Of a stretch of DNA of 64,000 bases, positions 28,721 through 59,940 are shown in pieces. The notes under the pieces are model-generated. The model searched no databases. It was not told where the DNA came from and saw only the letters and a list, made by a program, of their open reading frames with translations. Both the position numbers and the translations under genes were made by a program. The first letter of the stretch is position 1, and the number at the start of each line of letters is the position of its first letter. The DNA is from Flavicella sediminum. GTDB taxonomy: Bacteria > Bacteroidota > Bacteroidia > Flavobacteriales > Flavobacteriaceae. The stretch spans positions 651,546 to 715,545 of the forward strand of contig NZ_VDET01000002.1 in the NCBI RefSeq assembly GCF_006381105.1. Direction: 5' to 3'.

Positions 28721-28730
28721 TTAGCTAAAA

Positions 28731-42746: not shown

Positions 42747-42777
42747 ACCGAAGCATTTAAATTTTAAATCCTTCGGT
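42747..42777 (+). terminator. Terminator between convergent genes
   Basis: ACCGAAG at 42747-42753 pairs with CTTCGGT at 42771-42777, and the inner ATTTAAA/TTTAAAT arms extend the stem. A T-rich tract follows on the plus strand from 42781. It terminates the cytochrome/FG-GAP gene and overlaps the last codons of the convergent sulfatase. Confidence 0.7.
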
Positions 42778-44211
42778 TAGTTTTTTTCTTTTTGATATTT
42801 TCTTTTTCTTGAGCTGTTTTTCAGCTTTAGTAGTATCATAATTGGGATTGACTTCCATCATTTGTGCCCCTACAGAAACTCTCCACTTTTTTAGCTTTTT
42901 AAGTAAGGACTTAGCTTTTGAACTTTCCGTAGCTGCTAAATTATTCGATTCAAAGGGGTCGTCTTTCAAGTTGTACAATTCTAAATTCCCTTCCTCAAAA
43001 AATTCAATTAGCTTCCAATCACCATCTAAAATAGCGCCATAGGGTTTGGTTCTATGATAGTGTGGATAATGCCAATACAAGGTTTTTCTTTTTAATTCCT
43101 TCCTCTTTCCTGTCAAAAGCGGCAACATGCTGACACCATCCATATGTTGTTTTTTTCGCAATTTCAATCCAGCCAAATCCAACATCGTAGGATAAAAATC
43201 TGTTCCCATTACTTTTTCCTTACAAACAGTACCTGCTTTAATTTTGTTTGGCCATTTTACTAAAAAAGGTTCTCTTGTACCTCCTTCATGAGAAAAACCT
43301 TTAAAGCCCTTTAAACCATTTGTTGTTTCGTCATAATTACCACCATTATCACCCGTTAATATAACTACCGTATTGTCATCAATTCCCAAGTCTTGCAATT
43401 TAGCCATCAACCTACCCACACTCACGTCTAGTTTCTCCACCATTCCAGCCCTTGCCGGATCCATATATTCATTTTTTGAATTGGTAAATGTTTTTGCTTT
43501 TTGTTTGTATTTCTTCACCAATTCTGGCGGTGCCATGACAGGTCCATGTATTGTATAGTAAGAAAAATAAAGTAAAAATGGGTTTTGCTTGTTGATGGTA
43601 TCTAAAATAGAAACAGCAGCATCGGTTAATTTATCTGTTAAAAAATCTCCTGGTTTTCCATTGTCTAAATTAGGCATATCAAAAGGAGAAAAATACTTTC
43701 CTGGTCCTTTTGGTGCTCCCCATTCTCTACCACCAATATTCACATCAAACCCATGATTTGTAGGATAGTGCTCCTCAAAATCTGCTTGTCCTTCTGGCAT
43801 TAAATGCCATTTCCCTAGAAAGGCAGTATTGTAGCCTTCTTCCTTTAGAGCTTCAGGCAACAAGACTTCTTTTGGGCCCATTTTCATTTTCCAATCGGGC
43901 ACTTTTAATTTAGCGTATGGATATTTATGACCGTCAATCCAATCCGTTAGCTGTAAACGAGCCGGATATTTTCCTGTAAGAATGGCGGCTCTACTAGGAG
44001 AACAGACTGTACAAGCGGCATATGCGTTGGTAAACAACATTCCTTCACTTGCTAGTTTATCAATATTTGGAGTTTCATTAAAGCTTGCACCATAGCAACC
44101 AAAATCGCCCCAACCTAAATCGTCTACCAAAAGAAAAACAAAATTTGGTTTTTCAGTTTGTGCAAAAAACAATGAGGGCAACATCAATAGTCCAAGTAGT
44201 ATTCTCTTCAT
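42757..44211 (-). CDS. Type I (formylglycine) sulfatase, exported
   Basis: A 484-residue S1-family sulfatase with signal peptide (1-18, FAQ). The formylglycine cysteine is C70 in C-S-P-S-R, metal-binding Asp residues lie in LVDDLGWGDFG (30-31), and LGKWHL, LTGDNGG and the C-terminal LYNLKDDPFE segment are typical of arylsulfatase A-like enzymes. It is not closely related to the paired sulfatases on either side. The last 30 residues are very lysine-rich (AEKQLKKKKISKRKK), which is uncommon for a mature enzyme. Terminators on both sides make it a single-gene unit. Confidence 0.94.
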   Translation of the reverse strand: MKRILLGLLMLPSLFFAQTEKPNFVFLLVDDLGWGDFGCYGASFNETPNIDKLASEGMLFTNAYAACTVCSPSRAAILTGKYPARLQLTDWIDGHKYPYAKLKVPDWKMKMGPKEVLLPEALKEEGYNTAFLGKWHLMPEGQADFEEHYPTNHGFDVNIGGREWGAPKGPGKYFSPFDMPNLDNGKPGDFLTDKLTDAAVSILDTINKQNPFLLYFSYYTIHGPVMAPPELVKKYKQKAKTFTNSKNEYMDPARAGMVEKLDVSVGRLMAKLQDLGIDDNTVVILTGDNGGNYDETTNGLKGFKGFSHEGGTREPFLVKWPNKIKAGTVCKEKVMGTDFYPTMLDLAGLKLRKKQHMDGVSMLPLLTGKRKELKRKTLYWHYPHYHRTKPYGAILDGDWKLIEFFEEGNLELYNLKDDPFESNNLAATESSKAKSLLKKLKKWRVSVGAQMMEVNPNYDTTKAEKQLKKKKISKRKKLTEGFKI

Positions 44212-44270
44212 ATAAATTCAATTTGTTTAAAATAATTTCGCAATAAATGTATGCTATTTAAATTTACTAA

Positions 44271-44302
44271 AAAAAGGGACTCCAAAAATGAAGTCCCTTT
44301 TT
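44271..44302 (-). terminator. Rho-independent terminator after the minus-strand GH2
   Basis: AAAAAGGGACT at 44271-44281 pairs perfectly with AGTCCCTTTTT at 44292-44302 over a 10-base loop; the A run on the plus strand supplies the T tract for minus-strand transcripts. It closes the BNR-sulfatase-GH2 operon. Confidence 0.87.
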
Positions 44303-44335
44303 AACAAACACTAATTCAATTTTACTTTTCTAATA

Positions 44336-46795
44336 CTATTTTGTTAAAACCACTACGCTAGCACTTTTTAAGCCCTTTGATTTGGCCGTTAATTTTATTT
44401 TTCCACCTTTTTTAGAAGACTTTAAAATTGCCAAACACATACCACTAAAAGCTTTTCTATGATTTGCTTGAAAAGACTCCAAACTAATCTGATTCCCATT
44501 ATCTACCGCTTCTAAGTTCCCTTCACCTCTCACGGAAAAGTTCACTAAGTTTTCAGCATTCGGACATAAATTTCCGTTTTTATCTTCAATTCTAACGGTC
44601 ACATAAGCTAAATCAGAACCATCTGCCTGAATCTCTTTTCTATCTACTGACAATGTTACTTTTGCTGGTTTTTCTGCTGTGAAAATTTGTTCTTCCTGAA
44701 CCGCTTTTCCATTTTTATAACCAACAACTTTGATATTTCCTGCTGCATAAGGAACGTCCCAAGAAAGTCGGTATTTTGATTGAAAAGTTTCACCTTCATA
44801 ACGCATAAACTTTACAATCAATTCTGTTAAGTCTTTTCCTTTTACCTTTTTCCCCATCGATTTTCCATTCACAAACAATTCAGCTGAATCGCAGTTTGTA
44901 TAACAGTACACAGGAATTGTTTTACCTTCCATACCTTTCCAATTCCAATGTGGCAACAAGTGAATCATCGGCTTTGTTGTCCAATGACTTTGGTACAAAT
45001 AGAAACGGTCTTTCGGGAAACCACACAAATCAACTGCCCCGAAATAAGAACTATGAGAAGGCCAATCTCCATTCCAATACCCATTGGTCGAATTGTCTTT
45101 CCCTCCGTATGGGGTAGGTTCGCCTAAATAATCAAAACCTGTCCAAATAAATTCTCCCATCATATTTGGATTTTTTTCTTGAAAATGAAATTCAACATCT
45201 GGAGGATAAGCCCAAGGTGGTCCTATCAAATCGTAGCTACTTACATGCTTAGAGGGATGTGTTTTGTATTTTTCAATAGGCAAATGATATACTCCACGAC
45301 TACTAGTACAACTTGACGTTTCAGAACCATAAAATGGTAAGCCTGGATAATCAGAAATCAACTCACCATACTTTGTAGGTTTGTAATTGATCCCTGCAAT
45401 ATCTACTTGCTGTGCAAAATTCAATTTATAAGGTGCAGGAAAATTATTCATTCCTACCGTTGTTGGGCGAGATGGATCGATTTCTTTGCACGCGTCATGT
45501 AACATTTTTGCTACTTTCCAACCGTTCTTTTTATCATGCTGTTCATGAATTTCATTCCCAGTACTCCACATAATTACTGAAGGATGATTTCTATCTCTAC
45601 GAATCATGTCTTGAATATCTCTTTTAGCCCAATCGTTAAAATATAGATTGTAGCCGTTTGGAACTTTAGGCTCTTTCCAAACATCAAACGCTTCATCTAA
45701 AACTAACAAACCTAGCTCATCACACAATTCTAAAAACACTCTAGAAGGTGGGTTGTGACTTGTACGAATGGCATTTACACCCATTTCTTTCATAATCTCT
45801 AGCTTTCTTTGGTCAGCTCTTCTATAAATAGCAGCTCCTAAGGCGCCATTATCATGGTGTAAACAAACACCATTAAATCGAACTTTTTTACCATTTAAGA
45901 AAAATCCTTCTGTAGTATAAGCAATGGAACGTAATCCAATTCGAGACTCAAAAGTATCTACTACTTTTCCATTTTGGCTTACTGTAGTCACTACTTTGTA
46001 TAAATTTGGTGTTGCAGTATCCCATCGCATAGGATTTTCAATATTGCACCAAACAGCAGAAACTTTCTTTGAATTGGCTGCTATTTTGATTTTATCTTCT
46101 GTTTTTGCCGCTACTCTTCCATCAGGAGAAATATATTCATGCTGAACGGTAGCTTCCACTTCTTTGTTCGATTTATTTTCAATGGTTGTTTCGTTTTGAA
46201 CCACAGCAATTTTTTCCGTTACTGTTGGCGTAGTAATATAGGTTCCCCACATCGGCACATGCACAGTTTCGTCCACTTTTAACCAAACTGAGCGGTACAA
46301 ACCAGCACCTGGATACCATCTAGAAGACAAATCTTGCGGACGTAAACGAACCGCAATTACATTATTTGAACCATCGTATTTTAAGAACTTACTGATATCA
46401 AATTCAAATCCGATATATCCATAAGGACGATTTCCTACAAAATTTCCATTTACCCAAACATGAGCATCGTACATGGCTCCTTCGAATTCTACACGAACAA
46501 CTTTTCCTTCTGCTTCTTTGTTCATGGCAAAATTCTTACGATACCAACCTGTTCCATGAAAAGGAAGTCCACCACAACGGGCATTGTATTTTTCATCAAA
46601 AGGCCCTTCAATTGCCCAATCATGAGGCAAATCTAATTTTCTCCATTTTGACACATCAAAACTTGGTTTTTCTGCACCATCTGCTTCGGCATTGTAGAAC
46701 TGCCAGGAAGCATCAAAATTTACGGTTTGTGCATTTGTTGTAAAACAACTAAACGCAATCAGTGCGACTAGGCACCTAAAAAAATTACTTCTCAT
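44336..46795 (-). CDS. GH2-family glycoside hydrolase, exported
   Basis: An 819-residue GH2 exo-glycosidase, this time with a cleavable signal peptide (1-22, NAQ) rather than a lipobox. The acid/base is E415 in MWSTGNEIHEQ and the probable nucleophile is E492 in YGSETSSC. The ring motifs NGVCLHHDNGALGAAIYRR and AIRTSHNPPSRVFLE are shared with the paralogue at 32995-35454, as is the C-terminal DUF4982/Ig-like region. The nucleophile surroundings differ (GSETSSC here, VTECASA there), so the two probably prefer different sugars or linkages. It is the last gene of a BNR-sulfatase-GH2 operon. Confidence 0.93.
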   Translation of the reverse strand: MRSNFFRCLVALIAFSCFTTNAQTVNFDASWQFYNAEADGAEKPSFDVSKWRKLDLPHDWAIEGPFDEKYNARCGGLPFHGTGWYRKNFAMNKEAEGKVVRVEFEGAMYDAHVWVNGNFVGNRPYGYIGFEFDISKFLKYDGSNNVIAVRLRPQDLSSRWYPGAGLYRSVWLKVDETVHVPMWGTYITTPTVTEKIAVVQNETTIENKSNKEVEATVQHEYISPDGRVAAKTEDKIKIAANSKKVSAVWCNIENPMRWDTATPNLYKVVTTVSQNGKVVDTFESRIGLRSIAYTTEGFFLNGKKVRFNGVCLHHDNGALGAAIYRRADQRKLEIMKEMGVNAIRTSHNPPSRVFLELCDELGLLVLDEAFDVWKEPKVPNGYNLYFNDWAKRDIQDMIRRDRNHPSVIMWSTGNEIHEQHDKKNGWKVAKMLHDACKEIDPSRPTTVGMNNFPAPYKLNFAQQVDIAGINYKPTKYGELISDYPGLPFYGSETSSCTSSRGVYHLPIEKYKTHPSKHVSSYDLIGPPWAYPPDVEFHFQEKNPNMMGEFIWTGFDYLGEPTPYGGKDNSTNGYWNGDWPSHSSYFGAVDLCGFPKDRFYLYQSHWTTKPMIHLLPHWNWKGMEGKTIPVYCYTNCDSAELFVNGKSMGKKVKGKDLTELIVKFMRYEGETFQSKYRLSWDVPYAAGNIKVVGYKNGKAVQEEQIFTAEKPAKVTLSVDRKEIQADGSDLAYVTVRIEDKNGNLCPNAENLVNFSVRGEGNLEAVDNGNQISLESFQANHRKAFSGMCLAILKSSKKGGKIKLTAKSKGLKSASVVVLTK

Positions 46796-46825
46796 ACTTT
46801 ACTTTTCTATTTATTAACTGTTTCA

Positions 46826-48367
46826 TTAAATGTGACTTCCGGTAACAACTTTACTGTCTCTAGTTTCATTGTATTTACGCAACAAATACGCTACTTTTTT
46901 TCTATATTTCTTAACTGCAACATAATTGAATCTTTCATCCTCTGTATCATTCGTTTTTAAATTGAACAATGCAATCGGAGTTCTTTTCATATTAGTCTTG
47001 TCCTTTTTATCAATTTGAATAATTAGTTTCCAATCCTTTTCAATAATCACCACTTCTCTTTGAGAACCGCCTTGAATCAGGATGTGACCACGTGTATGTT
47101 TTTTTTCTTTATTTGTAAATAAGGGTACTAAATTATAGGAATCCATTGCTTCATTTTCTGCTAATTTTGAGTTTGCAACGGCTGCAATGGTAGCTAAAAT
47201 ATCAGTTCCTAAAATAGGTGTATTATTATTTTGTCCTTCTTTTATTTGCTTTGGCCAAGAAGCTATAAAAGGCACTCGATGTCCACCTTCATAAGGATCG
47301 TTTTTGCAACCTCTGTAAATATCACTTGGATAATGATGAGCATTCCAAGAATCACCATCGGTATGTAAGCCCCCATTATCTGACGTAAAAATCAACAATG
47401 TATTGTCATAAACACCTTGCTTTTTTAATTCTTTTACCAACATACCTACTTGAACATCTAATTCTTTGATCATATCCATATGACGAGAAGGTGTTGTTCC
47501 TGCTATTTTTACACCATCCAATTCTGCTGCTGCAAGATGCGGTGTATGCACAGCTTGTGAGCAATAATACATAAAAAATGGGTTTTCCTTTTTCGCATTG
47601 TTGGCAATAAATTCCACAGCTTTATTTGCCAATATGGGGCCTATTTCTGAAGGCTGCCAATTAGAATCACCCAAGCCTTCTTTTTTATCCAAAACAGCAC
47701 CAATACTTTCCATATAGACCTTATCAATCAAGGCAATTTCAGATGATTTTTTCAAAGGCAACCATTGGTCATTTTCATAAATGGCATACGGCTCATTTTG
47801 AATTCCTGAAGGCAAGGTTACACTGTAATCGAAACCACTTTGTTTAGGACCAAAATCCTTAATTTTAGTGATATCTATATTCAAACTTGTTTTATTTCTA
47901 GTCGCAGCAAACAGTTCATTTGGATCACTTTTTTTGGCGAAACTTGTTCCCAAATGCCATTTTCCTATAAATGCTGTATGGTAATTTGCCTTCTTCATAA
48001 CTCTACCAAGCGTTGGTTGTTCCTTAGAAATTACTGACTGTGCATAACCAGACCAAACACCCCAAGGCAATGGACTTCTATAATTATTATTCCCTGTCAT
48101 GATAGAATAACGAGAAGTTGCACATAAGGCGGCAGGAGCGTGTGCACTTGTAAAATACATTCCTTCGCTTGCCAATTTATCAATATTCGGAGTTTCTAAA
48201 ACAACTTTTCCTTTGTGTAAACGGCGATAATGAGAAATATCTCCTACCCCAATATCATCTGCTAACACCACAATGACATTTGGTTTTGAATTTTCTTTTG
48301 ATTGCGATTTTACAGTTGTTGAAGCAATTACTAAAACAAATATTGCTATTATTTTTAATGAGTTCAT
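46826..48367 (-). CDS. Type I sulfatase with non-canonical CATSR motif
   Basis: A 513-residue exported sulfatase of family S1, paralogous to the one at 39459-40967 (shared GDISHYR, SAHAPAALC, SPLPWGVW, FGPKQSGFDYS). Metal-binding Asp residues are in LADDIGVGD. The maturation motif is C82-A-T84-S-R, with Thr (codon ACT) where Pro or Ala is normal for formylglycine-generating enzyme or anSME. The cysteine and arginine remain, so the enzyme may still be matured, less efficiently, or may have lost activity. It begins 2 bases after the BNR gene's stop and precedes GH2 by 30 bases. Confidence 0.9.
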   Translation of the reverse strand: MNSLKIIAIFVLVIASTTVKSQSKENSKPNVIVVLADDIGVGDISHYRRLHKGKVVLETPNIDKLASEGMYFTSAHAPAALCATSRYSIMTGNNNYRSPLPWGVWSGYAQSVISKEQPTLGRVMKKANYHTAFIGKWHLGTSFAKKSDPNELFAATRNKTSLNIDITKIKDFGPKQSGFDYSVTLPSGIQNEPYAIYENDQWLPLKKSSEIALIDKVYMESIGAVLDKKEGLGDSNWQPSEIGPILANKAVEFIANNAKKENPFFMYYCSQAVHTPHLAAAELDGVKIAGTTPSRHMDMIKELDVQVGMLVKELKKQGVYDNTLLIFTSDNGGLHTDGDSWNAHHYPSDIYRGCKNDPYEGGHRVPFIASWPKQIKEGQNNNTPILGTDILATIAAVANSKLAENEAMDSYNLVPLFTNKEKKHTRGHILIQGGSQREVVIIEKDWKLIIQIDKKDKTNMKRTPIALFNLKTNDTEDERFNYVAVKKYRKKVAYLLRKYNETRDSKVVTGSHI

Positions 48368-48369
48368 AG

Positions 48370-51300
48370 TTACTTTTTTACGAATTTGCCCGTGTTAATT
48401 TTATTTTCTGAATGAATGCGATAAAAATAAATTCCAGACTTTAAGGCAGAAATAGTAATTCCTTCTTTCTTATAAAGAGCTGTCATTAAAAGTTTGCCTT
48501 CTAAAGAATAAATTTGAAGATCTGAACTTTTTTCAATTCCTGAAATTTTTAATAAATCAGAAACAGGATTTGGATAAACACGTATTTCATTATTCTCCGA
48601 AAGAATTGTAGGAACCGCTAAGTTGGCAGAAGGGTCCATGGCCATATACCACCCACTTCCTCTAGTTGAAGCATAATATTTCCCAGGTACCGTATAATCT
48701 ATGGCAATATCATTTACTCTATCCGACTGGCCGTTTCCTTTGTTAAACTTCACCCATGTTTCACCTCCATCTTTCGACAAATAGGTTCCTGCATTTCTAA
48801 AAGAAACTTGCGCATTTGGCAAGGTTGAAACCATAATAATCGCAGCATCGTGTTTCGCAACCTCCACACGGTTTGTCCAAGGATAATCAAATATTTTAGT
48901 CCATGAAGCTAATTGATCATCGCTCACCCATAAACCTCCACTATCCGCAGATTCATTTTTAAAACCCGCTGTAATATATACTTTTCCATCCACCCCAAAG
49001 TGAATGTCATTAATTCCTGATGCACCAGAAATACTTGTTGTAGAAGCGACTTCGCTCCATGTCTCACCTTTGTTTATGGACTTAAACAAACCACCATTAT
49101 CACCAATAACGGTAGCATATAAAACACTTGAATTATTCGGGTCCATCACCAATCTAGAAACATCTAAAGAAGCCGGTAAGCCTGTATTTGGTTCTGTCCA
49201 AGTAACACCACCATCAGTAGATTTATGAATTCCATATCCAGTAACACTATCGCCCACCCATTCTAGTTTTAAAGTAGAACGTGGAACACAGAAGTACATC
49301 GTATTTGGATTGTCTTTATCAATTTGTAAACTCAATTGATGCACGGCTTGATCACCACCTCCTAAAACGGGCCAAGGAGTTGGAATTGGTGTACCTATAC
49401 TCGTCCATGTTGCACCGCTATTTGTAGATTTTAAAATTTGTCCTCTTTTTTCTTGTCTAAAAAATGTTGCATACCAAATAGTTGGATCTGTGGGATGAAC
49501 AACCACTGAACTTACCGAATGCTCTCCCCCTGTTATGTCAATTACTTGTGCTCCTTGAGCGCCTGCTCTGATACTTTCACCTTCATTATTTGTAAGCCAC
49601 AAACTGTTCTCGCCAGAAGGACAAAATACTTTGTTTGGCAATAAAGGTGACTGATAAAAACCATGGCCTGGCACATTGCTATTTCCTGCTCCCACCCAAC
49701 TGTCATTACTTGCGGTAGCTTCATCATCAATATCTAACCAAGTGCTTCCTTTGTCGTACGACACAAATCCTATTTTGGCCATTTGCGTATACAAGACCGA
49801 GCCATCAGCGCTAAATCGAACAAAATTACAGCCCTTACGTTCGTAATCATCTCTATTTACCCAATCACTTTTATACTTCATAGTAATATTTGTCCCCATC
49901 GGATTGTTTTTTTGGGTCACCCAATAAGCATCATCCTTTCCATTGTTCCAATTTTTTCCATTTCTGAGGGTAACAAACCAGCTAGTTCCTCCATTTGTAG
50001 TCCGCCAAATTTGTCCGGGTCTAAAATTATTTTCAGAAGCATTGGAATAGTTATTTACCAAATAGATATTATTCACATCAAACGGATCTACCGTAATCAG
50101 ATTAAAACGAGAACTAATATTTGTTGGTAAAGTTGGATAGGTTGTTTGCGCCTCTTCCCAAGAACTCAAACCAAAATAATGTGCTATAGATTGGTAATAA
50201 TCTTTCTTTATGTTGTAATTATCTGAAAAATAGGACAAGTCAACACCAAGATTTCCATCAATATTTGTCCAAGTTTCCCCTTTGTCGGTACTTTTAAAAA
50301 CACCCCCTTCATCATCTTCAACAGTAGTGCCATTAGCTTTCCAAGTGATATTACTCAAAGCATATATTGTGACAACATCCGTTGAAGTATCATGGTGTAT
50401 ATCCATAGAACGAATCATGTCATGATCTATTCCATTTGACTTTAAACTCCAAGTTGAGCCGCCATTTATACTTTTATAAAAACCATAATTGGTACCTGCA
50501 TACACAATTGAAGAATTTACTGGGTCTACACGAATGGTTTCTACCTCTGCATTTGAATGAATTCCCGAACTAGTCAAAGTCCAATTCAAGCCTTTATCCG
50601 TACTTTTCCAAATTTTACCCTGACTATTTACATCGACCTGTGTTCCTTTCGGAGCAGATTGAGGATACAACAGACGTCCATAATCACGCATTCTTCCGGC
50701 TCCTAAAAACCAAATATTTTCATTTTGTGGATCTACTGAAACACAAGCCAAATAAGAATTCCCTATGACATTTTGAGTAGCAGTTTGTCTGGCCCAAGTT
50801 TTTCCTTTATCGGTTGAAAAAAACAAATCTCCTTTCTTTTTTCCTGTCATAAAACCATAATCGGCGTCCTGTCTCGAAAAATCAACTGAATACATTTCAA
50901 TAGCACCTCTATAGTCAGAATGATAAGATGGTGCGTCTTCATTTAAAATAGTTTCATAGGTAAATCCTTTATCTGTAGACCTGTAAGAATTTCCCATATT
51001 GGGACTTGTAAAAACAATATTCGCATCAGTTGGATGGGTATAGAAACAGGTATTATTCCCACTCATTCCTGGACCAAACTGCACCCATTTTATGCTTTCA
51101 TCAGAAGCGATGTCTTTAGATTTGATATCTACAAAAAAACCAGTTTCTGGAACCATTTCTTCTATGACATAATCATCAAAATAGAATTCACCTGAACCAT
51201 CATCATTTGGTCGCATAGAAAATAACACATAGCCACCCGTACTATTTTCAGCAGCCGTAAAAACCGTAGAATATTTGACCCAGTTTGTACTAGACAAGGT

Positions 51301-51666
51301 CATATTTATGTGTCCTATTTTTGTACCTGAATTATTAAAAATTTTTATGTTCGGCTCATTATTTGTGCCAATGCTAAGCGCTTTGTAGTAAAATGAAATG
51401 GTATAAGCAACACCGTCTTTCCATTCAATATTTTTTGGAGTCCATAAATTCCCTTTTTGCCCCGTAGCAGTAAACTTCATATGCAAGCCATTCGTACCTT
51501 GATTTTTTGCCGCAGTTTTTATTTCGAAGTTAGCCAATCCTGATCCGCTAGTTGCGGCATCCCAATCTGTTGCCAAACTATTCTCAAAACCACTGGTAAA
51601 AACTTGTGCCATTCCTAAGCTAGGAAAAACGAACAGTAATACTATTTTATATAATTGTAGTTTCAT
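48370..51666 (-). CDS. CBM-BNR/sortilin-like beta-propeller protein, T9SS-secreted
   Basis: A 1098-residue secreted protein: signal peptide (1-20, GMAQ), a CBM4/9-like jelly roll (about 23-168, ending GEFYFDDYVIEE), two beta-propellers with about ten Asp boxes (STDKGKTW, STDKGLNW, SINGGSTW, STDKGETW, TTNGGTSW, STDGGVTW, SKDGGETW), and a type A T9SS sorting domain at the end (VYPNPVSDLLKI ... GKFVKK). It is a paralogue of the protein at 35461-38736, with WxQFGPGMxG at the start of the propeller in both, but only this one has the N-terminal carbohydrate-binding module. That supports an action on polysaccharide. First gene of its operon. Confidence 0.83.
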   Translation of the reverse strand: MKLQLYKIVLLFVFPSLGMAQVFTSGFENSLATDWDAATSGSGLANFEIKTAAKNQGTNGLHMKFTATGQKGNLWTPKNIEWKDGVAYTISFYYKALSIGTNNEPNIKIFNNSGTKIGHINMTLSSTNWVKYSTVFTAAENSTGGYVLFSMRPNDDGSGEFYFDDYVIEEMVPETGFFVDIKSKDIASDESIKWVQFGPGMSGNNTCFYTHPTDANIVFTSPNMGNSYRSTDKGFTYETILNEDAPSYHSDYRGAIEMYSVDFSRQDADYGFMTGKKKGDLFFSTDKGKTWARQTATQNVIGNSYLACVSVDPQNENIWFLGAGRMRDYGRLLYPQSAPKGTQVDVNSQGKIWKSTDKGLNWTLTSSGIHSNAEVETIRVDPVNSSIVYAGTNYGFYKSINGGSTWSLKSNGIDHDMIRSMDIHHDTSTDVVTIYALSNITWKANGTTVEDDEGGVFKSTDKGETWTNIDGNLGVDLSYFSDNYNIKKDYYQSIAHYFGLSSWEEAQTTYPTLPTNISSRFNLITVDPFDVNNIYLVNNYSNASENNFRPGQIWRTTNGGTSWFVTLRNGKNWNNGKDDAYWVTQKNNPMGTNITMKYKSDWVNRDDYERKGCNFVRFSADGSVLYTQMAKIGFVSYDKGSTWLDIDDEATASNDSWVGAGNSNVPGHGFYQSPLLPNKVFCPSGENSLWLTNNEGESIRAGAQGAQVIDITGGEHSVSSVVVHPTDPTIWYATFFRQEKRGQILKSTNSGATWTSIGTPIPTPWPVLGGGDQAVHQLSLQIDKDNPNTMYFCVPRSTLKLEWVGDSVTGYGIHKSTDGGVTWTEPNTGLPASLDVSRLVMDPNNSSVLYATVIGDNGGLFKSINKGETWSEVASTTSISGASGINDIHFGVDGKVYITAGFKNESADSGGLWVSDDQLASWTKIFDYPWTNRVEVAKHDAAIIMVSTLPNAQVSFRNAGTYLSKDGGETWVKFNKGNGQSDRVNDIAIDYTVPGKYYASTRGSGWYMAMDPSANLAVPTILSENNEIRVYPNPVSDLLKISGIEKSSDLQIYSLEGKLLMTALYKKEGITISALKSGIYFYRIHSENKINTGKFVKK

Positions 51667-51709
51667 TTGCTTCGGTTAATAGTTTTGAATGTCCCTTAAA
51701 CATACAGCA

Positions 51710-51717
51710 CAAATTTA
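51710..51717 (-). promoter_or_regulatory. -7 promoter element of the BNR-sulfatase-GH2 operon
   Basis: CAAATTTA on the plus strand reads TAAATTTG on the minus strand, an exact TAnnTTTG match 43 bases upstream of the BNR start codon. A TTG (CAA at 51734-51736) lies 16 bases further upstream as a possible -33 element. Confidence 0.5.
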
Positions 51718-51798
51718 CTCCTAAGCAACAATTCAACTTTAAACAAATGATTTTGTTTGTGTAGTATATGTGTTTTTTGAAGAAACACATGAACAAAA

Positions 51799-51833
51799 CA
51801 ACACCCCTTGATTATTTAAAACAAGGGGTGTTG
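51799..51833 (-). terminator. Rho-independent terminator after the GH105-sulfatase operon
   Basis: CAACACCCCTTG at 51799-51810 pairs perfectly with CAAGGGGTGTTG at 51822-51833 over an 11-base loop. A-rich sequence on the left gives the T-rich tail for minus-strand transcripts. It lies 66 bases past the stop of the sulfatase at 51900. Confidence 0.85.
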
Positions 51834-51899
51834 CAATATAAAAGAGATAGAGCTTTTTAAAAAATTCTGATCAAAAAACTCTTTCGTAAAGACTTTATT

Positions 51900-53336
51900 T
51901 TAGAAAGTACTTTTTGCTTTCGCTTGTATTTTCTCCTTTAAAAGCAAAGTCAATTCTGCTACTTTATCGAGGTTTATATCTGAAATATTTGTTGTCTCAA
52001 AAGGATCTTTTTCATGATCGTATAGTTCTGCACCTTTTTTATCATGAAGCGTAAATCTATATCTCTGAGTTCGTAGGGTATGAGCACCACCACGATAAGC
52101 AAAAGCCACATGCCCTTGTTTTTTTTCATTTTTCAACAAAGGAAGCAAAGAGGTTCCGTTGGTGAAATTTGGTATCTCTACGTTTGTCAACTCACAAAAA
52201 GTTGGAAATAAATCTACAGTTTCTACCACAGCCCTTGTGCTTTTTCCTTTTGTTTTGATACCTGGATAAGAAATAATAAGAGGCGAGCGCAAACCTTCTT
52301 CAAATAAATTGTGTTTTCCCCAAATAGCATGATCACCTAAATTCCAACCATGATCACCCCATAAAACAACTATGGTATTTTTATCGGCGCCGGTCTTTTT
52401 TAATTTCTTTAAAATTTTACCCACCTGAGCATCTGCATAACTAACACAAGCAGCATAATGTCTTCTAACCTCGTCGGCAAATTGCTTATCCACATTCGGA
52501 TCTTTATCCCAAAGATTGTATCTTCTAAATTCACCCGACTTATGCCATGTTGAAATTCCTATTGGTTTTTCTGGAGAAGGAATTGGAGGTAATTGAACTC
52601 CCTTATACAAATCCAAATATTTTTTTGGTGCCCCAAAAGGCAAATGAGGCTTTATCATTCCAACAGCTAAAAAAAAGGGTTTTGTTGTGTCGGCAGTCAA
52701 TTGCTCTAGTTGATGTAAAGCTTCTTTTGCAATATACCCATCCGGGTAAATCATATCGGAACCTTCAGTGCTTTGAAAAACATCCATATCTTTTGAATTT
52801 TTCCGAATTTCACCATTTGCCAAACCATGCATTGCTCCTCTAGGGTGCAACCATTCTGCCACTGGCATTAGATGTTTATCCCAAGCATTGGGCATTTCAA
52901 TAACATTCGGATCATTCCAATCGACACCACCTTCACCTCCAGGATGATGAGATACTTTTCCTATAGAAACCGTGGTATATCCATTCTTTCGAAACCATTC
53001 AGGCATGCTTAAATTAACCGAATTGTTTTTATTTTTCAATGCTTTCGCTCTTAAAAAAATAGCATCATTTTGCGGAGGACCATAAATACCCGTTAGAAGT
53101 GTGTAACGAGAAGGCCCACAACTTGGCGCATTGACATAATGATTCTTAAAAATGAGTCCTTTTTTTGCCAAGGCATCTATATTTGGAGACTTGATATAAG
53201 ATGCTCCAAAGCAGTTTAGCTCTGGCCGTAAATCGTCAATACAGAGCAATAAAATATTTTTCTTATTGGATTGTGCTACCGACAAACATGTGCATAAAAA
53301 CAGGCAACTTAGCGCTGTAATTCTAAATAATTTCAT
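51900..53336 (-). CDS. Type I sulfatase, iduronate-2-sulfatase-like
   Basis: A 478-residue exported sulfatase with signal peptide (1-22). The formylglycine cysteine is C73 in C-G-P-S-R, and the metal-binding motif is [13 protein letters not shown]. The IDDLRPEL motif, GIYGPP...NDAIFLR and GKVSHHPGG place it with the iduronate-2-sulfatase/choline-sulfatase-like branch, distinct from the other three sulfatases here. Marine members of this branch act on uronic-acid or rhamnose sulfates in algal polymers, which would fit the GH105 partner. It starts 4 bases after the GH105-BNR fusion's stop, a tight operon. Confidence 0.93.
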
Positions 53337-53340
53337 CTAT

Positions 53341-55776
53341 TTATTTTAAAACAATTCCTTTTACATCTGAAGCGTAATTTACAAAAGATTTCCACGGTCC
53401 ACTTAACCAAATTAAAACTTTGTGCCCTTCATTTGCAACTACAATTGGGCGAATATTTCTAAAACTTGAATTTTCAGTAATCGCTTCCCATTTTATGGTT
53501 GAAATATCATCAGCCTCTTTTATTTTAGCGGTGTAAATTTCATGAATATTGTTCATCTTTTCTCCCGTAGAAGGGTTTACATCTGTTGAAATATACACTC
53601 GTGTTGGATCTTCAGGATCAAAAGCCATTAAACCCGTATAACTACTTTCCATGGTGTACAAACAAGTTCCTGCGTAGGCAATTTCTCTATCAACCCACTT
53701 GCTACCGTTCCAACTATTAATTCTGAATCTATGATCCTCATTACTCAAATACAAAGTATATCCAAGGTGCGGATTATTTTCAGCATCTTTTCCCATGGCA
53801 CAAGTCCAAGCAGCGTTTGGTACACTTTCAAAACCGTGAGGCTTCTTCTTTGTTTCACTACCCACATATAATTTTTCAGCTTCTGGAGTTCTCAAAGGCT
53901 CTCCATTTGCTTCTTTAATTTTGGTTCCATCTACATTGTAAAAAGTTCCATTTCTAAATTCGGCATAATACAAACTATTCCCATAGGCACGAGGATGTCC
54001 ATCAGTAAAAGAAATTCCAACGGTATTTTCATCTTTTTGAATATAGCGAGCGTAAGGACGTTGTCTCCCTTCCACATCATCTGCAATAAAATGCGTTCTA
54101 TTACCCCAAGTTTTTCCATGATCTTTTGATGTGATATAACTCGGATTAAAAGAGGGTCCATCTCTAAAAAAATTATACAGTGTTTTTTCATTTTCTAAAT
54201 AATGAAGATTCATATAAGTAACTCCGCCCCTTCCTTTATACTCATGAACAAAAGTTTGTTTTTCTCCCCATTGTGTATAATCTGTTGTAGAAGAAATACT
54301 GTAATAATGTTTGTTTTCATTTGCATGTCTTGCCCAAACAGAAAGTACACTTCCATCAGGACGCGCATAAAAAGCAGGAACATCATGATCGTCGACTTGG
54401 AAATTTTTATCTAAAATAACTGTTCCTTGATCTGATTTTTTATCCAAATCATAAACACTCACTTTTACATCACCACTTTGTCCACTAACACCACCAATTA
54501 CTAATTTTCCGTTGTTGATAATCGCTCGAGGATCTTGGTACCAACACCAACCACCATCTTTCATAAAAGTAAGCGCATTGCTATTTTCTTCAACTACAAT
54601 TTTACGCTCTTTTTCCTTAAAATATTTATACATCTCGGCACCCGCAGCCAAAAATGCCCCAACACCATATACTTCAGTATAATCTTTAAAACTATTACCA
54701 GGAGCCGCGCCGATAGGTTGAATATATCCTACTAATCCCGCTTCATTTACACATTCAGTTAAAGCATTCCAACCTTTTAACATTACGGAAGTGTATTCAT
54801 TGGCAGGCAAGTACCCGTTGTTAATTCCCCATGCCAAACCGAAAACAAAAAAAGCAGAACCACTAATCTCCTTAGTTGGGTAGGCCTTTTCACCTCCTAA
54901 CAATCCAGATGACCAAGTACCATCCTTTCTTTGCGTTTTTTTAATCGTTTCAGCCATTTTTTTAAAAAGAGCAACATAAAATGGTTTTCCTTCCCAATTT
55001 TCAGGTAGATCTGGTATCATTATAGATAAACCGCCAAACACCCATCCATTTCCCCTAGACCAAAATAATTTTTCTCCGTTTTTTTCTTTTTTTGAAATGA
55101 ATGTTTTATCTCTAAAAAACAATTGTTCTTCATTGTCAAACAGCTTATCATAAGTCCTATGATATTGCTGATCCATAAAATTTAGATATTTTTCATTGCC
55201 TGTAGCCTCTGATAACTTCGCCCAAACTGGTGGTGCCATAAATAAGGCATCACACCATGTCCAGTGAAAATTATCTTTTTGATCACTATTTAAAATGGCG
55301 TCAAATTGTTTTTTTAAAGGTTTGATTAGTTTGCTATAACCAAACAATTCTCCCATATTCAAATAATTTTGACCAACAGCATGATCATCTGCATGGTACA
55401 TTCTTTTGTAAAGCTTCCATCCATTCTTTTGACCAATATTGTATAACCATTTTGAATATTTTGGATCGCCTGTAATTTCGGAAAACTCGAACATCCCTGC
55501 ATACAAAGCCGCACAGGTCCAATCCAAATCGTGGTGTTTTTCTCTATTATGCCATTTTTTTCTTTCACCTCCCACAGGTAGTGCTCTGTACTTCCCCATT
55601 TGTTCAAATGTAGCAATTTGCCAATCGGCTACTTTTGTCGTTAATTCTTTGACTTCCTTTGCTGTGGTACTATTTTCAATTTTAGCAGTATCTACTAAAA
55701 CGGCTATTTTTTTTCTGCTTTTACAACTTGTAAGAACAAGAAAACTGATGCATAAACAAATACTAATTTTTTTCAT
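53341..55776 (-). CDS. GH105 unsaturated uronyl hydrolase fused to a PL24/25-like propeller
   Basis: An 811-residue lipoprotein (LTSC, Cys18) with two catalytic-type domains. Residues about 45-390 are a GH88/GH105 (alpha/alpha)6 barrel with the catalytic Asp D176 in WTWCDALFMAPP, removing unsaturated uronic acid from lyase products. Residues about 400-811 are a BNR-4 beta-propeller like PL24/PL25 ulvan lyases. Residues matching the recalled PL25 catalytic set (His, His, Tyr, Arg, Tyr) occur in order with similar spacing: H464 in DDHDVP, H484 in WARH 20 residues later, Y521, R538, and Y575 or Y578 in RPYARY. The protein would thus cut the polymer and trim the new end. The PL role is inferred. 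Confidence 0.82.
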   Translation of the reverse strand: MKKISICLCISFLVLTSCKSRKKIAVLVDTAKIENSTTAKEVKELTTKVADWQIATFEQMGKYRALPVGGERKKWHNREKHHDLDWTCAALYAGMFEFSEITGDPKYSKWLYNIGQKNGWKLYKRMYHADDHAVGQNYLNMGELFGYSKLIKPLKKQFDAILNSDQKDNFHWTWCDALFMAPPVWAKLSEATGNEKYLNFMDQQYHRTYDKLFDNEEQLFFRDKTFISKKEKNGEKLFWSRGNGWVFGGLSIMIPDLPENWEGKPFYVALFKKMAETIKKTQRKDGTWSSGLLGGEKAYPTKEISGSAFFVFGLAWGINNGYLPANEYTSVMLKGWNALTECVNEAGLVGYIQPIGAAPGNSFKDYTEVYGVGAFLAAGAEMYKYFKEKERKIVVEENSNALTFMKDGGWCWYQDPRAIINNGKLVIGGVSGQSGDVKVSVYDLDKKSDQGTVILDKNFQVDDHDVPAFYARPDGSVLSVWARHANENKHYYSISSTTDYTQWGEKQTFVHEYKGRGGVTYMNLHYLENEKTLYNFFRDGPSFNPSYITSKDHGKTWGNRTHFIADDVEGRQRPYARYIQKDENTVGISFTDGHPRAYGNSLYYAEFRNGTFYNVDGTKIKEANGEPLRTPEAEKLYVGSETKKKPHGFESVPNAAWTCAMGKDAENNPHLGYTLYLSNEDHRFRINSWNGSKWVDREIAYAGTCLYTMESSYTGLMAFDPEDPTRVYISTDVNPSTGEKMNNIHEIYTAKIKEADDISTIKWEAITENSSFRNIRPIVVANEGHKVLIWLSGPWKSFVNYASDVKGIVLK

Positions 55777-55875: not shown

Positions 55876-57201
55876 TTACAATTTAGGCTCCCACCCTTTT
55901 TCGTAGTCTCTTTTCCAAAGTTTATTGGCTTTTTTATTTTTTAGAATTCTTCCTGTTTTTGGATCAACATCCAAACTTTCGCCAACTGCTTGTGCAATAT
56001 TTCCTAAATGACATAGCTGTGTTGAAATGGCACCATCAGCAATAGGAGCATTCAGTTTTTCTCCTTTTAAAATAGCATTGGCAAAATTCTTCATATGATT
56101 CACTGTCAAACCATCAAAGCCTCTAGTATCTGCCGTGTTGTTTGATGTCCCCTGTTGATTTTCTTTCTTTGAGCTAATTTTCTTTCCTCTTATATCAAAC
56201 AATTCGTACTTACCTCTATCTAAAACAATAGAACCTTCAGTTCCAAAAATAGTCGCTCCTCGACCCCCTGTTGGTTTATAAGAATTGCAACTTCTACCGT
56301 CCCAGGTAATCATTTTCCCATCTTCAAACTCATAGCTAGCCATTTGGGTATCATAATATTCCCAATCATCACCCTGACCGTGTAATCTACCACCAGCCGA
56401 AACGACTCTTGTTGGGTAATCAACACCTAAAGCCCAACGACAGATATCAATTTCATGAGTTCCATTGTTATGAATTTCTCCAGTACCCCAAGCTTTAAAC
56501 CAATGCCAGTTGTAAGGATGCACATTATCTCTATAGGCTTCTCTAGGAGCCGGTCCTTGCCACAAATCCCAATCTAAAAACGAAGGAACTTCTACTTTTT
56601 TACCAATTCCAATAGTTTTACGAGCATTTCTATAATGTGCTTTACCCGCATAAACTCTACCTATAATTCCATCTTTGATATCCGCCATTGCTAAAGTTGA
56701 AGTCACAGAAGAACGTTGTTGGTTCCCCATTTGGCATTGCATCTTGTATTTTTTTTGAGCAGCAATTAGCAATTCTGTTTCATGAGGATTGTGACTACAA
56801 GGTTTTTCAACATATACATGTTTTCCTGCTTGCATAGCCATAATAGCCATAGGTGCGTGCCAGTGTTCGGGTGTAGCCACGGCAACCGCATCAATATCTT
56901 TATTCTCCAACAATACTCTAAAATCAGACTCCATTTCAGGAGTATTCCCATTGGTTGTTGTGCAATATCCTTGGAATTTTTCCAATCTATTTTTATCCAC
57001 ATCACAAATATGAGTGACGCTACTATTTCCGCTATCTGCAATTGCTTTGGCCAAACTATGTGCTCTACCACCACATCCTAATATTGCGATATTCACCTTA
57101 CTATTTGCACCTATAATATTTGAAAATCCTGCTGCGCTTACCAAACTTAATCCAGCGGTTGTTAAAGCTGTGTTTTTTATAAATTCTCTTCTTGTTGTCA
57201 T
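55876..57201 (-). CDS. Tat-exported Gfo/Idh/MocA-family oxidoreductase
   Basis: A 441-residue NAD(P)-dependent sugar oxidoreductase. The N-terminus has a twin-arginine signal (TTRREFIKN, then a hydrophobic stretch to about residue 32), so it is exported folded with its cofactor, as known for glucose-fructose oxidoreductase. The Rossmann motif ILGCGGRAHS is at about 36-45, the catalytic-loop signature EKPCSHNPHE at about 133-142, and GRGATIFGTEGSI lies in the C-terminal domain. Such enzymes oxidise glycosides to 3-keto forms in several catabolic pathways. The partner DUF1080 gene lies 17 bases upstream in the same operon, which supports that role here. Confidence 0.9.
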   Translation of the reverse strand: MTTRREFIKNTALTTAGLSLVSAAGFSNIIGANSKVNIAILGCGGRAHSLAKAIADSGNSSVTHICDVDKNRLEKFQGYCTTTNGNTPEMESDFRVLLENKDIDAVAVATPEHWHAPMAIMAMQAGKHVYVEKPCSHNPHETELLIAAQKKYKMQCQMGNQQRSSVTSTLAMADIKDGIIGRVYAGKAHYRNARKTIGIGKKVEVPSFLDWDLWQGPAPREAYRDNVHPYNWHWFKAWGTGEIHNNGTHEIDICRWALGVDYPTRVVSAGGRLHGQGDDWEYYDTQMASYEFEDGKMITWDGRSCNSYKPTGGRGATIFGTEGSIVLDRGKYELFDIRGKKISSKKENQQGTSNNTADTRGFDGLTVNHMKNFANAILKGEKLNAPIADGAISTQLCHLGNIAQAVGESLDVDPKTGRILKNKKANKLWKRDYEKGWEPKL

Positions 57202-58580: not shown

Positions 58581-58622
58581 TGTTGCTTCTTGTTATAGTT
58601 TATAAAATTTTCTATTCTCTTT

Positions 58623-58630
58623 CAAATGTA
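58623..58630 (-). promoter_or_regulatory. -7 promoter element of the DUF1080 operon
   Basis: CAAATGTA on the plus strand reads TACATTTG on the minus strand, an exact TAnnTTTG match 42 bases upstream of the DUF1080 start codon. No -33 TTG is in place; instead a small palindrome lies there, which suggests regulated use. Confidence 0.5.
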
Positions 58631-58648
58631 TTGAACAATAGAGGTGTT

Positions 58649-58662
58649 CGTGTTCCCACACG
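58649..58662. promoter_or_regulatory. Palindrome over the -33 region of the DUF1080 promoter
   Basis: CGTGT at 58649-58653 and ACACG at 58658-58662 form a perfect inverted repeat with a 4-base spacer (TCCC). It lies 19-32 bases upstream of the -7 element, exactly where an activator or repressor would act. Confidence 0.35.
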
Positions 58663-58687
58663 TAAATACTCCGAATTGCACCGTCTA

Positions 58688-58752
58688 AATTAACTCATTT
58701 GTCAAAAAGAACTATCTTTAACCAAAATTAACTGTACTTGTAACGGTTAATT
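58688..58752. promoter_or_regulatory. TTAAC repeat cluster, candidate operator
   Basis: AATTAAC occurs at 58688-58694 and 58726-58732, TTAACC at 58718-58723, and the inverse GTTAATT at 58746-58752. The last two copies form a 7-base inverted repeat. Four copies in 65 bases between the winged-helix regulator and the DUF1080 operon make this a candidate binding site for that regulator. Confidence 0.35.
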
Positions 58753-58788
58753 TCACTAAAAAAAACTATTTTTCATCAAAAAAAAAGT

Positions 58789-59940
58789 ATGCTTTCTAAC
58801 GAAAAGAAAACAGAACTTACCGAAGAAATTTTAAAGAGTTCGCTCTTTATAAAATCACCCAAAAGCTCAGCATTGCTAAGGTATTTGGTAAAAGCAACCC
58901 TAGAGGATATTTATTTAAAAGAAGACATCATTGATCTCGAATTTTTTGGTGAAAAATCTGATTTTGACAGAAACAATCCTCGGGTACGTGTAAACATGTA
59001 CAATCTTCGAAAAAAAATTGAAAAGTATTACGAGCAGGAAGGCAAAGAGTCTGTTTGGAGATTAATTCTTGAAAAAGGACAATACAAAGTTCACTTTGAA
59101 AAACAAATAAAACCAAAATCTTTCTTTCGGAAGGTGAAACCAAAATATTTGATTCCTTATATTTTGTTGCTCATCGTTACTTCCACCTATGTTTATCAAA
59201 ATTACAGCACACATTATCCGAAAATTTGGAAGGTGTTTTTTACCAACGACAAACAGACTACCTTAATTATTGGAGATGTTTTTGGGATTTTAGGGAAAAC
59301 AATAACAGGATCGTATGGATTTACCCGAGATTACGGTTTGAATAATATTAGTGACTACTTAAATCTAATTTCTAAAAAACCTGAATTAGAAAAAATAACG
59401 AGACCCTCTAATTACACCTATTCTTCTAGTATGGGAGTAATTTCTTGTCATTATTTAACCCAATTGTACAGTAAACATAATGCTGCATTTGACATCCGAT
59501 TTTCTTCAAATACTTCCGTAGTAGATATAAAAAAAGGAAATATTATTTACGCAGGTCCTTTAAGAAATGAAAATAAATTTATTTCACTTTTTAATACCTT
59601 TAATACATATTTCACTATTGATGAAAGTAGAGTTCTTTACAAAGATTCCATCTCAAAGAAATATAAATTTTTCAGATCTGATAACGGAGGAAGAGACAAT
59701 ACCGACATGGCCATAGTTTCAAAATTTAAAGGTCCGTTTAACAATGAATATTTTTTATTCTTTTCAAACCACGATATTGGTGTCAAAGCTACTGTAGAAA
59801 AATTCACCAACTTAGATTCTTTAGCAGCCTTTGACAAAAAACACAAAATTGGAAACAAAAACTTTACTGCCGTATTTGAAGCCGAAGGAAAAGAAAGAAC
59901 CAATTTAAACCTAGTTACTTTAAAGGTGGTTACTTTTTAA
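58789..59940 (+). CDS. Membrane-tethered winged-helix-like transcription regulator
   Basis: A 383-residue protein with three parts. Residues about 8-104 match the DNA-binding-like domain that precedes TPR or TolB modules in many bacterial regulators: FIKSPKSSALLRYLVKATL, LKEDIIDLEFFGEKSDFD, PRVRVNMYNLRKKIEKYY, LILEKGQYKVHF. A single membrane helix follows at 120-137 (YLIPYILLLIVTSTYVYQ). Residues about 145-383 form an unrecognised domain that should face the periplasm. This is a ToxR/CadC-like layout, a one-component sensor acting from the membrane. It is divergent from the DUF1080-oxidoreductase operon, with repeat clusters between them. The ligand is unknown; an oxidised or sulfated sugar would be a guess. 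Confidence 0.72.
   Translation: MLSNEKKTELTEEILKSSLFIKSPKSSALLRYLVKATLEDIYLKEDIIDLEFFGEKSDFDRNNPRVRVNMYNLRKKIEKYYEQEGKESVWRLILEKGQYKVHFEKQIKPKSFFRKVKPKYLIPYILLLIVTSTYVYQNYSTHYPKIWKVFFTNDKQTTLIIGDVFGILGKTITGSYGFTRDYGLNNISDYLNLISKKPELEKITRPSNYTYSSSMGVISCHYLTQLYSKHNAAFDIRFSSNTSVVDIKKGNIIYAGPLRNENKFISLFNTFNTYFTIDESRVLYKDSISKKYKFFRSDNGGRDNTDMAIVSKFKGPFNNEYFLFFSNHDIGVKATVEKFTNLDSLAAFDKKHKIGNKNFTAVFEAEGKERTNLNLVTLKVVTF

Follow-up and report, generated by a model that had tools for sequence, protein, structure and literature searches.

A family of predicted membrane-anchored winged-helix regulators linked to divergent glycan operons by a direct-repeat operator

Introduction

According to the accessible part of a 2024 review (PMC10766802), genes for glycan use are commonly controlled by HTCS proteins, ECF sigma/anti-sigma pairs and catabolite repression. 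The stretch of Flavicella sediminum DNA analysed here (the window, 64,000 nucleotides in length, to which all plain coordinates refer) carries at 58789..59940 a gene that an earlier note, made from the letters alone, had described as encoding a ToxR-like membrane regulator with an unrecognised sensor domain, and had proposed as a further class of regulator of polysaccharide utilisation loci (PULs). Which genes does this protein control, through which DNA site, and does it stand apart from the regulators already described?

The regulator and its predicted structure

The gene (58789..59940, + strand) encodes 383 aa in an open frame with an ATG start and has conserved homologues: the same genome encodes five more full-length homologues at 28-46% identity, giving six members, and a named scan returned 63 further loci, so that the open reading frame can be accepted as real. 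In the full-length AlphaFold2 model (mean pLDDT 89.9, pTM 0.70) a helical core with a beta-hairpin wing is followed by a helix at residues 118-139 and an alpha/beta domain at 145-382. The winged-helix DNA-binding domain (residues 1-107; 58789..59109, + strand), presumed to be cytoplasmic, is modelled with helices at 4-15, 18-21, 24-38, 45-53 and 65-83, the last being the likely recognition helix, and with a hairpin of strands 90-94 and 101-105 forming the wing (residues 90-105). By sequence this region matches Trans_reg_C (PF00486) weakly, at E 0.015 for the whole protein and 0.0012 for residues 1-107, the latter scoring 19.3 bits against a cut-off of 26.2; a match at E<=1 was obtained for 21 of 31 family members, the best being 3.9e-4. 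The DNA-binding-like domain of the earlier note is therefore upheld by the model as a winged helix, whilst its sequence match remains sub-threshold. Residues invariant in the 31-member alignment, which excludes L017 (split match) and L026 and L027 (match at the N-terminal part only), include R67, L73, R74, G97 and Y99 in the DNA-binding part and W147, D163, N185, G256, G331, F339, G367 and R370 in the C-terminal part.

By its model and by hydropathy over 64 proteins, the window regulator appears to have the layout of ToxR and CadC, namely periplasmic sensor, one membrane helix and cytoplasmic winged helix (for CadC, in the available text of PMC5430869), and this modular layout, with the weak PF00486 match, would suit an ordinary OmpR-type membrane regulator of the ToxR/CadC family. 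The CadC DNA-binding domain, as set out in that same available text, runs beta1-4, alpha1-3 and beta-hairpin (PMC5430869), whereas our model, a predicted and not a solved structure, appears to have N-terminal helices where CadC has the beta1-4 sheet, and the PF00486 match falls below threshold. The regulator also differs from ToxR and CadC in its precise direct-repeat site, its tie to polysaccharide operons and a sensor without a named relative. Membership of the ToxR/CadC family is in our judgement improbable, and because the modelled fold lacks the OmpR-type beta-sheet the regulator was not filed there; 'ToxR-like' fits its predicted layout and describes its DNA-binding domain poorly.

The single membrane helix, previously placed at residues 120-137, spans 118-139 in the model (59140..59205, + strand) and is also indicated by hydropathy and K/R counts. 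It is the least hydrophobic of 64 proteins (19-residue mean 1.19 vs a family mean of 2.20); over these proteins the best hydrophobic segment at 90-170 reaches 2.20 on average, and all other segments reach at most 1.31. Six K/R residues flank the window protein's helix on its N side and two on its C side, and the N side is the richer in 44/64 proteins. Hydropathy and this K/R bias favour, without proving, a cytoplasmic N-terminus and a periplasmic C-terminus.

The remaining 244 residues (140-383; 59206..59937, + strand), put at about 240 in the earlier note, form an alpha/beta domain that is presumed to be a periplasmic sensor and that, when modelled alone with AlphaFold2, gave a mean pLDDT of 92.2 and a pTM of 0.89. 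The absence of a recognised match was borne out, with zero matches in Pfam, NCBIfam and PDB sequences at the limits applied: neither the protein nor either of two profiles matched any PDB sequence up to E 10, and the NCBIfam search of the protein gave no useful match. The top Foldseek match was BcsB, a periplasmic cellulose synthase subunit (E 9.3e-4, probability 0.99, TM-score 0.32), with TM-scores on the query of at most 0.33 for BcsB matches and identities of 12-14% among the top matches. The modelled fold may thus bear at most a partial resemblance to BcsB, which is too weak for a function to be assigned from it. Both BcsB and some very weak Foldseek matches to alpha-glucuronidases were rejected as ligand evidence.

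Distribution of the family

Matches were found in 22 of 299 genomes of the same taxonomic family, 20 remaining after removal of G225 and G002, in which only the N-terminal domain matches and is fused to TPR-type repeats. The winged-helix-TPR fusions L026 and L027 have the N-terminal domain in common with the regulator (32% identity) and carry TPR-type repeats in place of its C-terminal domain. Across the phylum, 14 of 395 genomes match the C-terminal profile, two of them weakly and partially. The 63 named loci, all of which we take to be from Bacteroidota judging by record titles, include many from marine genera, Zobellia, Flammeovirga, Aquimarina, Wenyingzhuangia and Lutibacter among them; this list is skewed to group A because a narrower profile was used for the named scan, the all-subgroup profile being too diverse.

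Plasmid-borne members in Persicobacter (two records) and Catenovulum adriaticum (Gammaproteobacteria) cover 90-96% of the query, and the C-terminal half of the Catenovulum protein matches the family profile at E 3e-24. A plasmid match in Granulicella (Acidobacteriota) is limited to the N-terminal 26%, its C-terminal part matching the family profile at E 1.2e-4 but with a probability of 55%. The spread of the family is patchy, with members in Bacteroidota, one clear gammaproteobacterial member and one weak acidobacterial member. The Catenovulum member (L166:7899-9179) is divergent from DUF1553/DUF1501 genes, with GH115 and GH43 nearby. The structure alignment comprised 53 rows, 11 of 64 proteins (L097 and ten near-duplicates picked by eye) being omitted, and later one of 51 rows, from which two further proteins were left out. 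The regulator match of L017 (genome G051, C154:10481-11673) lies in two stretches and may represent a frameshifted copy, and L091 has two regulator-like ORFs of this family, by phmmer/HMM labels, with about one gene between them.

Divergent glycan genes

In 62 of the 63 named loci the regulator and its upstream gene are divergently oriented, compared with 142 of 660 other genes of the same loci, gene calls being those of a simple ORF script. L085 is the sole non-divergent case, with a PDDEXK_2 transposase gene between the regulator and a divergent short-chain dehydrogenase. Neighbours were counted from Pfam matches, since phmmer/HMM labels over-called GH2 and missed some SusC. By this count the upstream neighbour is glycan-related in 57 of 64 loci, the window included (GH2 in 27, SusC/TonB type in 11, UxaC in 8, PF06439 and GH88 in 3 each, GH43 in 2, and UxuA, GH115 and sulfatase in 1 each), and 7 neighbours have no glycan assignment. 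The second genes of the divergent run include GH2 in 17/64 and SusD in 10/64. A finding of homologues mostly away from sugar-use genes, which would have counted against the proposal of a PUL regulator, was thus not made.

In the window, the divergent oxidative module reported earlier was recovered on the - strand by Pfam: a 3-keto-disaccharide hydrolase (PF06439; 57219..58580) is the first gene of the presumed target operon, which would also contain a GFO_IDH_MocA oxidoreductase (55876..57201) and a GH88 + BNR_4 protein (53341..55776, - strand). A co-oriented run (42757..53336, - strand), possibly a downstream part of the target unit, holds three sulfatases (51900-53336, 46826-48367 and 42757-44211), a Vps10-like secreted protein (48370-51666) and a GH2 (44336-46795).

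The five paralogues have as neighbours UxaC/GH2, GH88/BNR_4, GH2 and GH3, that of L162 having no Pfam match. This bears on whether the C-terminal domain might respond to a non-sugar signal, for instance a partner protein, a small ion or the state of the envelope, for which ToxR/CadC-type proteins offer a precedent. Such a role would suit a domain without a sugar-binding relative, whose best fold match is BcsB at a low TM-score, but the own-genome members sit with different operons (PF06439, UxaC/GH2, GH88, GH2, GH3 and the one without Pfam match), and varied catabolic operons fit substrate-specific inducers; we therefore think non-sugar sensing unlikely. The source genome is rich in glycan loci, with 31 SusD matches, so closeness to glycan genes alone is weak evidence for a regulator-target link, for which the operator described below is the stronger evidence.

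Some neighbourhoods have features of their own. Genes for the breakdown of uronates (UxaC, UxuA) and one for a PfkB-type kinase adjoin regulators or operators at L158:7844-9247, L095:8157-9320 and L159:4121-5128. At four Aquimarina loci (L096:8028-9320, L117:8136-9440, L119:8122-9411 and L127:8027-9319) the divergent gene product is of about 430 aa, and those of L096, L117 and L119, searched singly, gave no Pfam match at 1e-5; in L096 the gene that follows encodes a short-chain dehydrogenase.

A direct-repeat operator

The first hint of a shared DNA element came from translations of the upstream regions. The family operator consists of the direct repeats TTTAAC, TTAACGGT and TAACGGTTAA, each about one helical turn apart, and the predicted operator of the window (58717..58750, strand not assigned) consists of TTTAAC (58717-58722), TTAACTGT (58728-58735) and TAACGGTTAA (58741-58750), the C-to-C spacing being 11 + 12 bp in the consensus and 10 + 12 bp in the window. 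This element, which the earlier note had missed, lies inside the intergenic region 58581-58788 that the note had proposed for DNA binding, and an intergenic site is present in 60/64 loci.

In 1.27 Mb searched on both strands over 63 loci, the core TAACNGT-N5-TAACNGT gave 57 matches at the regulator promoter and 1 elsewhere, this single off-promoter match being that of L085, before the inserted transposase gene; the remaining spacings of 0-25, pooled, gave 1 match at promoters and 6 elsewhere. The two-repeat core TTAACGGT / TAACGGTTAA was present in 60/64 loci when T[AT]AC was allowed, a count that includes the window and L085 read beyond its transposase gene. Among these 60 operators the outer repeat GTTAA is in place in 55 and missing there in 5; of the four loci lacking the two-repeat core, L081, L124 and L126 have near copies by eye and L125 has a weak copy only. 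With one representative per 60%-identity cluster (median identity 0.41) the operator was found in 25/29, and the mean information per column was 1.34 bits in the operator vs 0.13 in the flanks. A Persicobacter plasmid locus, outside the 63, also carries it. At L085:3682-4662, in a Bacteroidales MAG, the PDDEXK_2 transposase gene separates operator from regulator.

Scanning the window's own genome with one mismatch allowed gave 39 matches, compared with 113 for a reversed control, and so no sign of a wide regulon. Exact matches in this genome number five, three of them at regulator operons; the other two were judged to be chance, lying 40-50 nt inside the 5' ends of ORFs where they encode signal-peptide-like stretches. 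One of these two is in an ORF that is sulfatase-like by eye (L164).

Position relative to the divergent promoter

The Bacteroidetes -7 box has the consensus TAnnTTTG in the available text of PMC7366714. On the divergent strand this box, at 5/6 or better, stands at an offset of 58-60 from the outer operator end in 39/60 loci, the window included, and every other offset from 0 to 117 gives at most 5 box matches. The candidate -7 box of the divergent operon in the window is TAATTTAG (58685..58692, - strand; 5/6 to TAnnTTTG, offset 58), and the window has a second 5/6 candidate at offset 40. A box of at least 5/6 is absent at 58-60 in 21/60 loci, including 7 of 11 susC-facing members and all four Flammeovirga loci. 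On the regulator strand of the 60 operators no full -7 match recurring at one offset was found, the sole peak (12/60, at offset 19) overlapping the operator end.

This arrangement bears on the sign of regulation. A repressor freed by its ligand, acting through the same operator on the same target, as with many divergent local regulators, would fit the divergent layout and the single local site equally; where the -7 box is clear (39/60), however, the repeats end a fixed distance upstream and leave it uncovered, which is the geometry expected of an activator. Repression is accordingly an unlikely reading. In the accessible part of PMC7366714, no conserved -33 motif could be identified across Flavobacterium johnsoniae, and the absence of such a motif at the present promoters is uninformative for activator vs repressor.

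Operators apart from the regulator

The repeats lie 37-146 nt ahead of the regulator start codon, as they might if they served the regulator's own gene only, by autoregulation or as a leader element. Their distance to the regulator ATG varies, however, whilst many loci keep the same distance to the divergent -7 box, and in two cases the operator stands apart from the regulator gene altogether.

The first of these came from an extended pattern, TTTAAC-N6-TTAACNGT-N5-TAACNGTTAA, which with one mismatch allowed gave 9 matches in 9 of 299 related genomes, all nine carrying a group-A regulator, compared with 0 matches in the 299 for the reversed pattern. Group A is present in 11 of the 299 genomes, G072 and G169 being missed by the pattern, as is the window's own site, in which the first spacing is one base shorter. 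Eight of the nine matches immediately precede a regulator. The remaining one, in G236, is directly upstream of two genes and 278 kb from the regulator (operator L178:9961-9995; regulator L179:8867-10018). In Zobellia uliginosa (L093) the regulator has a divergent GH2, with which the first of these two genes shares 67% identity. In G236, TAACTTTA (a 5/6 -7 box) stands at offset 59 from the operator, and the regulator's own upstream region holds, by eye, merely a decayed operator copy.

In the second case, the paralogue L003 of the window's own genome has no operator directly before its regulator gene, and at L159 a site in activating orientation heads a row of GH88, BNR_4 and regulator, 4 kb upstream of the regulator, with TAGTTTTG (a 6/6 -7 box) at offset 60 and an imperfect outer repeat, GTTAG. 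The L178/L179 operator, intact and adjoining GH2 genes, and the L159 operator thus keep the site with the target, and these two cases suggest that the operator belongs to the target operon and not to the regulator gene, so that a role confined to the regulator's own gene is very improbable.

Half-sites of the other groups

Groups B, C and N, which are the more distant members of the family, have upstream repeats with different half-sites, e.g. ACTGT, AACAGTT/TTAACTGTT and TTTAATGGTT. In a period scan the 12-bp peak reached 9.4 in group A, 9.0 in B and 8.8 in N, vs 5.3 in 195 control regions; the repeats of group C are weak (6.3 at period 12, equalled at 15), and group N has a second peak at period 17 (7.2). 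Since these groups comprise 7 (B), 7 (C) and 4 (N) sequences, a recognition code for the family is offered as a proposal.

Proposed mechanism

Computation gives good support to the family and its layout, to its coupling with divergent glycan genes, and to the operator and the link between operator and target, whereas direct DNA binding, activation rather than repression, head-to-tail stoichiometry and the membrane topology are inferred. The regulator is, with good probability, a one-component activator that is anchored in the membrane and serves a dedicated carbohydrate operon close by. Its C-terminal domain, outside the inner membrane, would detect a degradation product of whichever polysaccharide the adjacent genes process, and the signal would travel via the single helix to the cytoplasmic winged-helix domain. 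Subunits would bind the direct repeats head to tail, the repeats lying about one helical turn apart, and the bound regulator would bring RNA polymerase to the divergent promoter. The -7 box of this promoter would lie some 24 bp past the nearest repeat, in a class-II-like, PhoB-like geometry. PhoB itself binds the direct repeats of the pho box, about one helical turn apart and just upstream of the promoter. The PhoB/OmpR-type response regulators share this repeat geometry; the window regulator, unlike them, has no receiver, is membrane-anchored and matches their domain weakly. As to the ligand, we can speculate that it is a uronate-containing oligosaccharide, a link suggested by the recurrence of UxaC, UxuA, GH88, GH115 and PfkB kinase beside regulators, though neighbours of the GH2, SusC, GH3 and GH43 types do not demand a uronate ligand.

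Relation to known glycan regulators

The window regulator shows the full set of features of its family, namely winged helix, membrane helix, C-terminal domain, divergent glycan operon and direct repeats. Like HTCS proteins it appears to be a local, glycan-responsive membrane sensor with direct-repeat sites, those of HTCS being on average 21 bp apart in the available text of PMC3878776. None of the Reg_prop/Y_Y_Y, HisKA, HATPase, receiver and AraC domains was found in it by Pfam, whereas all HTCS domains were present in the window's HTCS at 21016-25248; Pfam also gave no Sigma70, FecR, GntR, LacI or AraC domain. Identities as an HTCS, an ECF/FecR protein or a GntR, LacI or AraC regulator were accordingly rejected on domain content.

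The membrane-anchored types of B. thetaiotaomicron named in the accessible passages of PMC3878776 are SusR-like and HTCS. SusR-like regulators of Bacteroides and the window regulator are both membrane-anchored and both serve glycan loci, and they are set apart here by published site spacing alone: predicted SusR sites come as a conserved pair separated by 67 or 77 bp (PMC3878776, same passages), compared with 10-12 bp between the repeats of the regulator. The earlier proposal of a further class of PUL regulator is partly supported, in that by computation the protein is one-component, is tied to glycan genes and belongs to none of the HTCS, ECF/anti-sigma, GntR and LacI types, its difference from SusR being one of this spacing.

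It is about an even prospect that the family constitutes a further main class of membrane-bound glycan receptor beside the HTCS, SusR-like and ECF/anti-sigma types, carried through Bacteroidota along with polysaccharide loci and present in Gammaproteobacteria and perhaps Acidobacteriota. The sensor fold of such a class would have no described relative that binds a ligand, and its half-site code would be readable, the subfamilies differing in half-site but sharing a period of about one turn. If so, targets, and perhaps ligands (uronate-bearing oligosaccharides), would be predictable from genome sequence. A recognisable operator would allow direct prediction of the polysaccharide operon under each family member, the sensor domain would help to find the oligosaccharide that acts as inducer and to build tools for inducible expression, and the family would add to the known control systems for glycan genes.

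A published description of this winged-helix/membrane-helix family was not found in the mostly open-access literature searched, including the available text of PMC12125979, and no regulator of this type is named in the accessible parts of two Zobellia papers (PMC5698469, PMC5613140). The latter, in those parts, lists induced one-component proteins in Zobellia as a class without detail, and members of the present family could be among them.

Several kinds of regulator come together in this region. Genes at 25523-30698, SusC-like (by eye) and SusD, are divergent from the window's HTCS (21016-25248). Just beyond the window's right end an ECF sigma/FecR pair (L165:5412-7183) adjoins the SusD/SusC genes that run from 60018, so that one stretch of glycan genes holds three signalling types: HTCS, the window regulator and ECF sigma/FecR.
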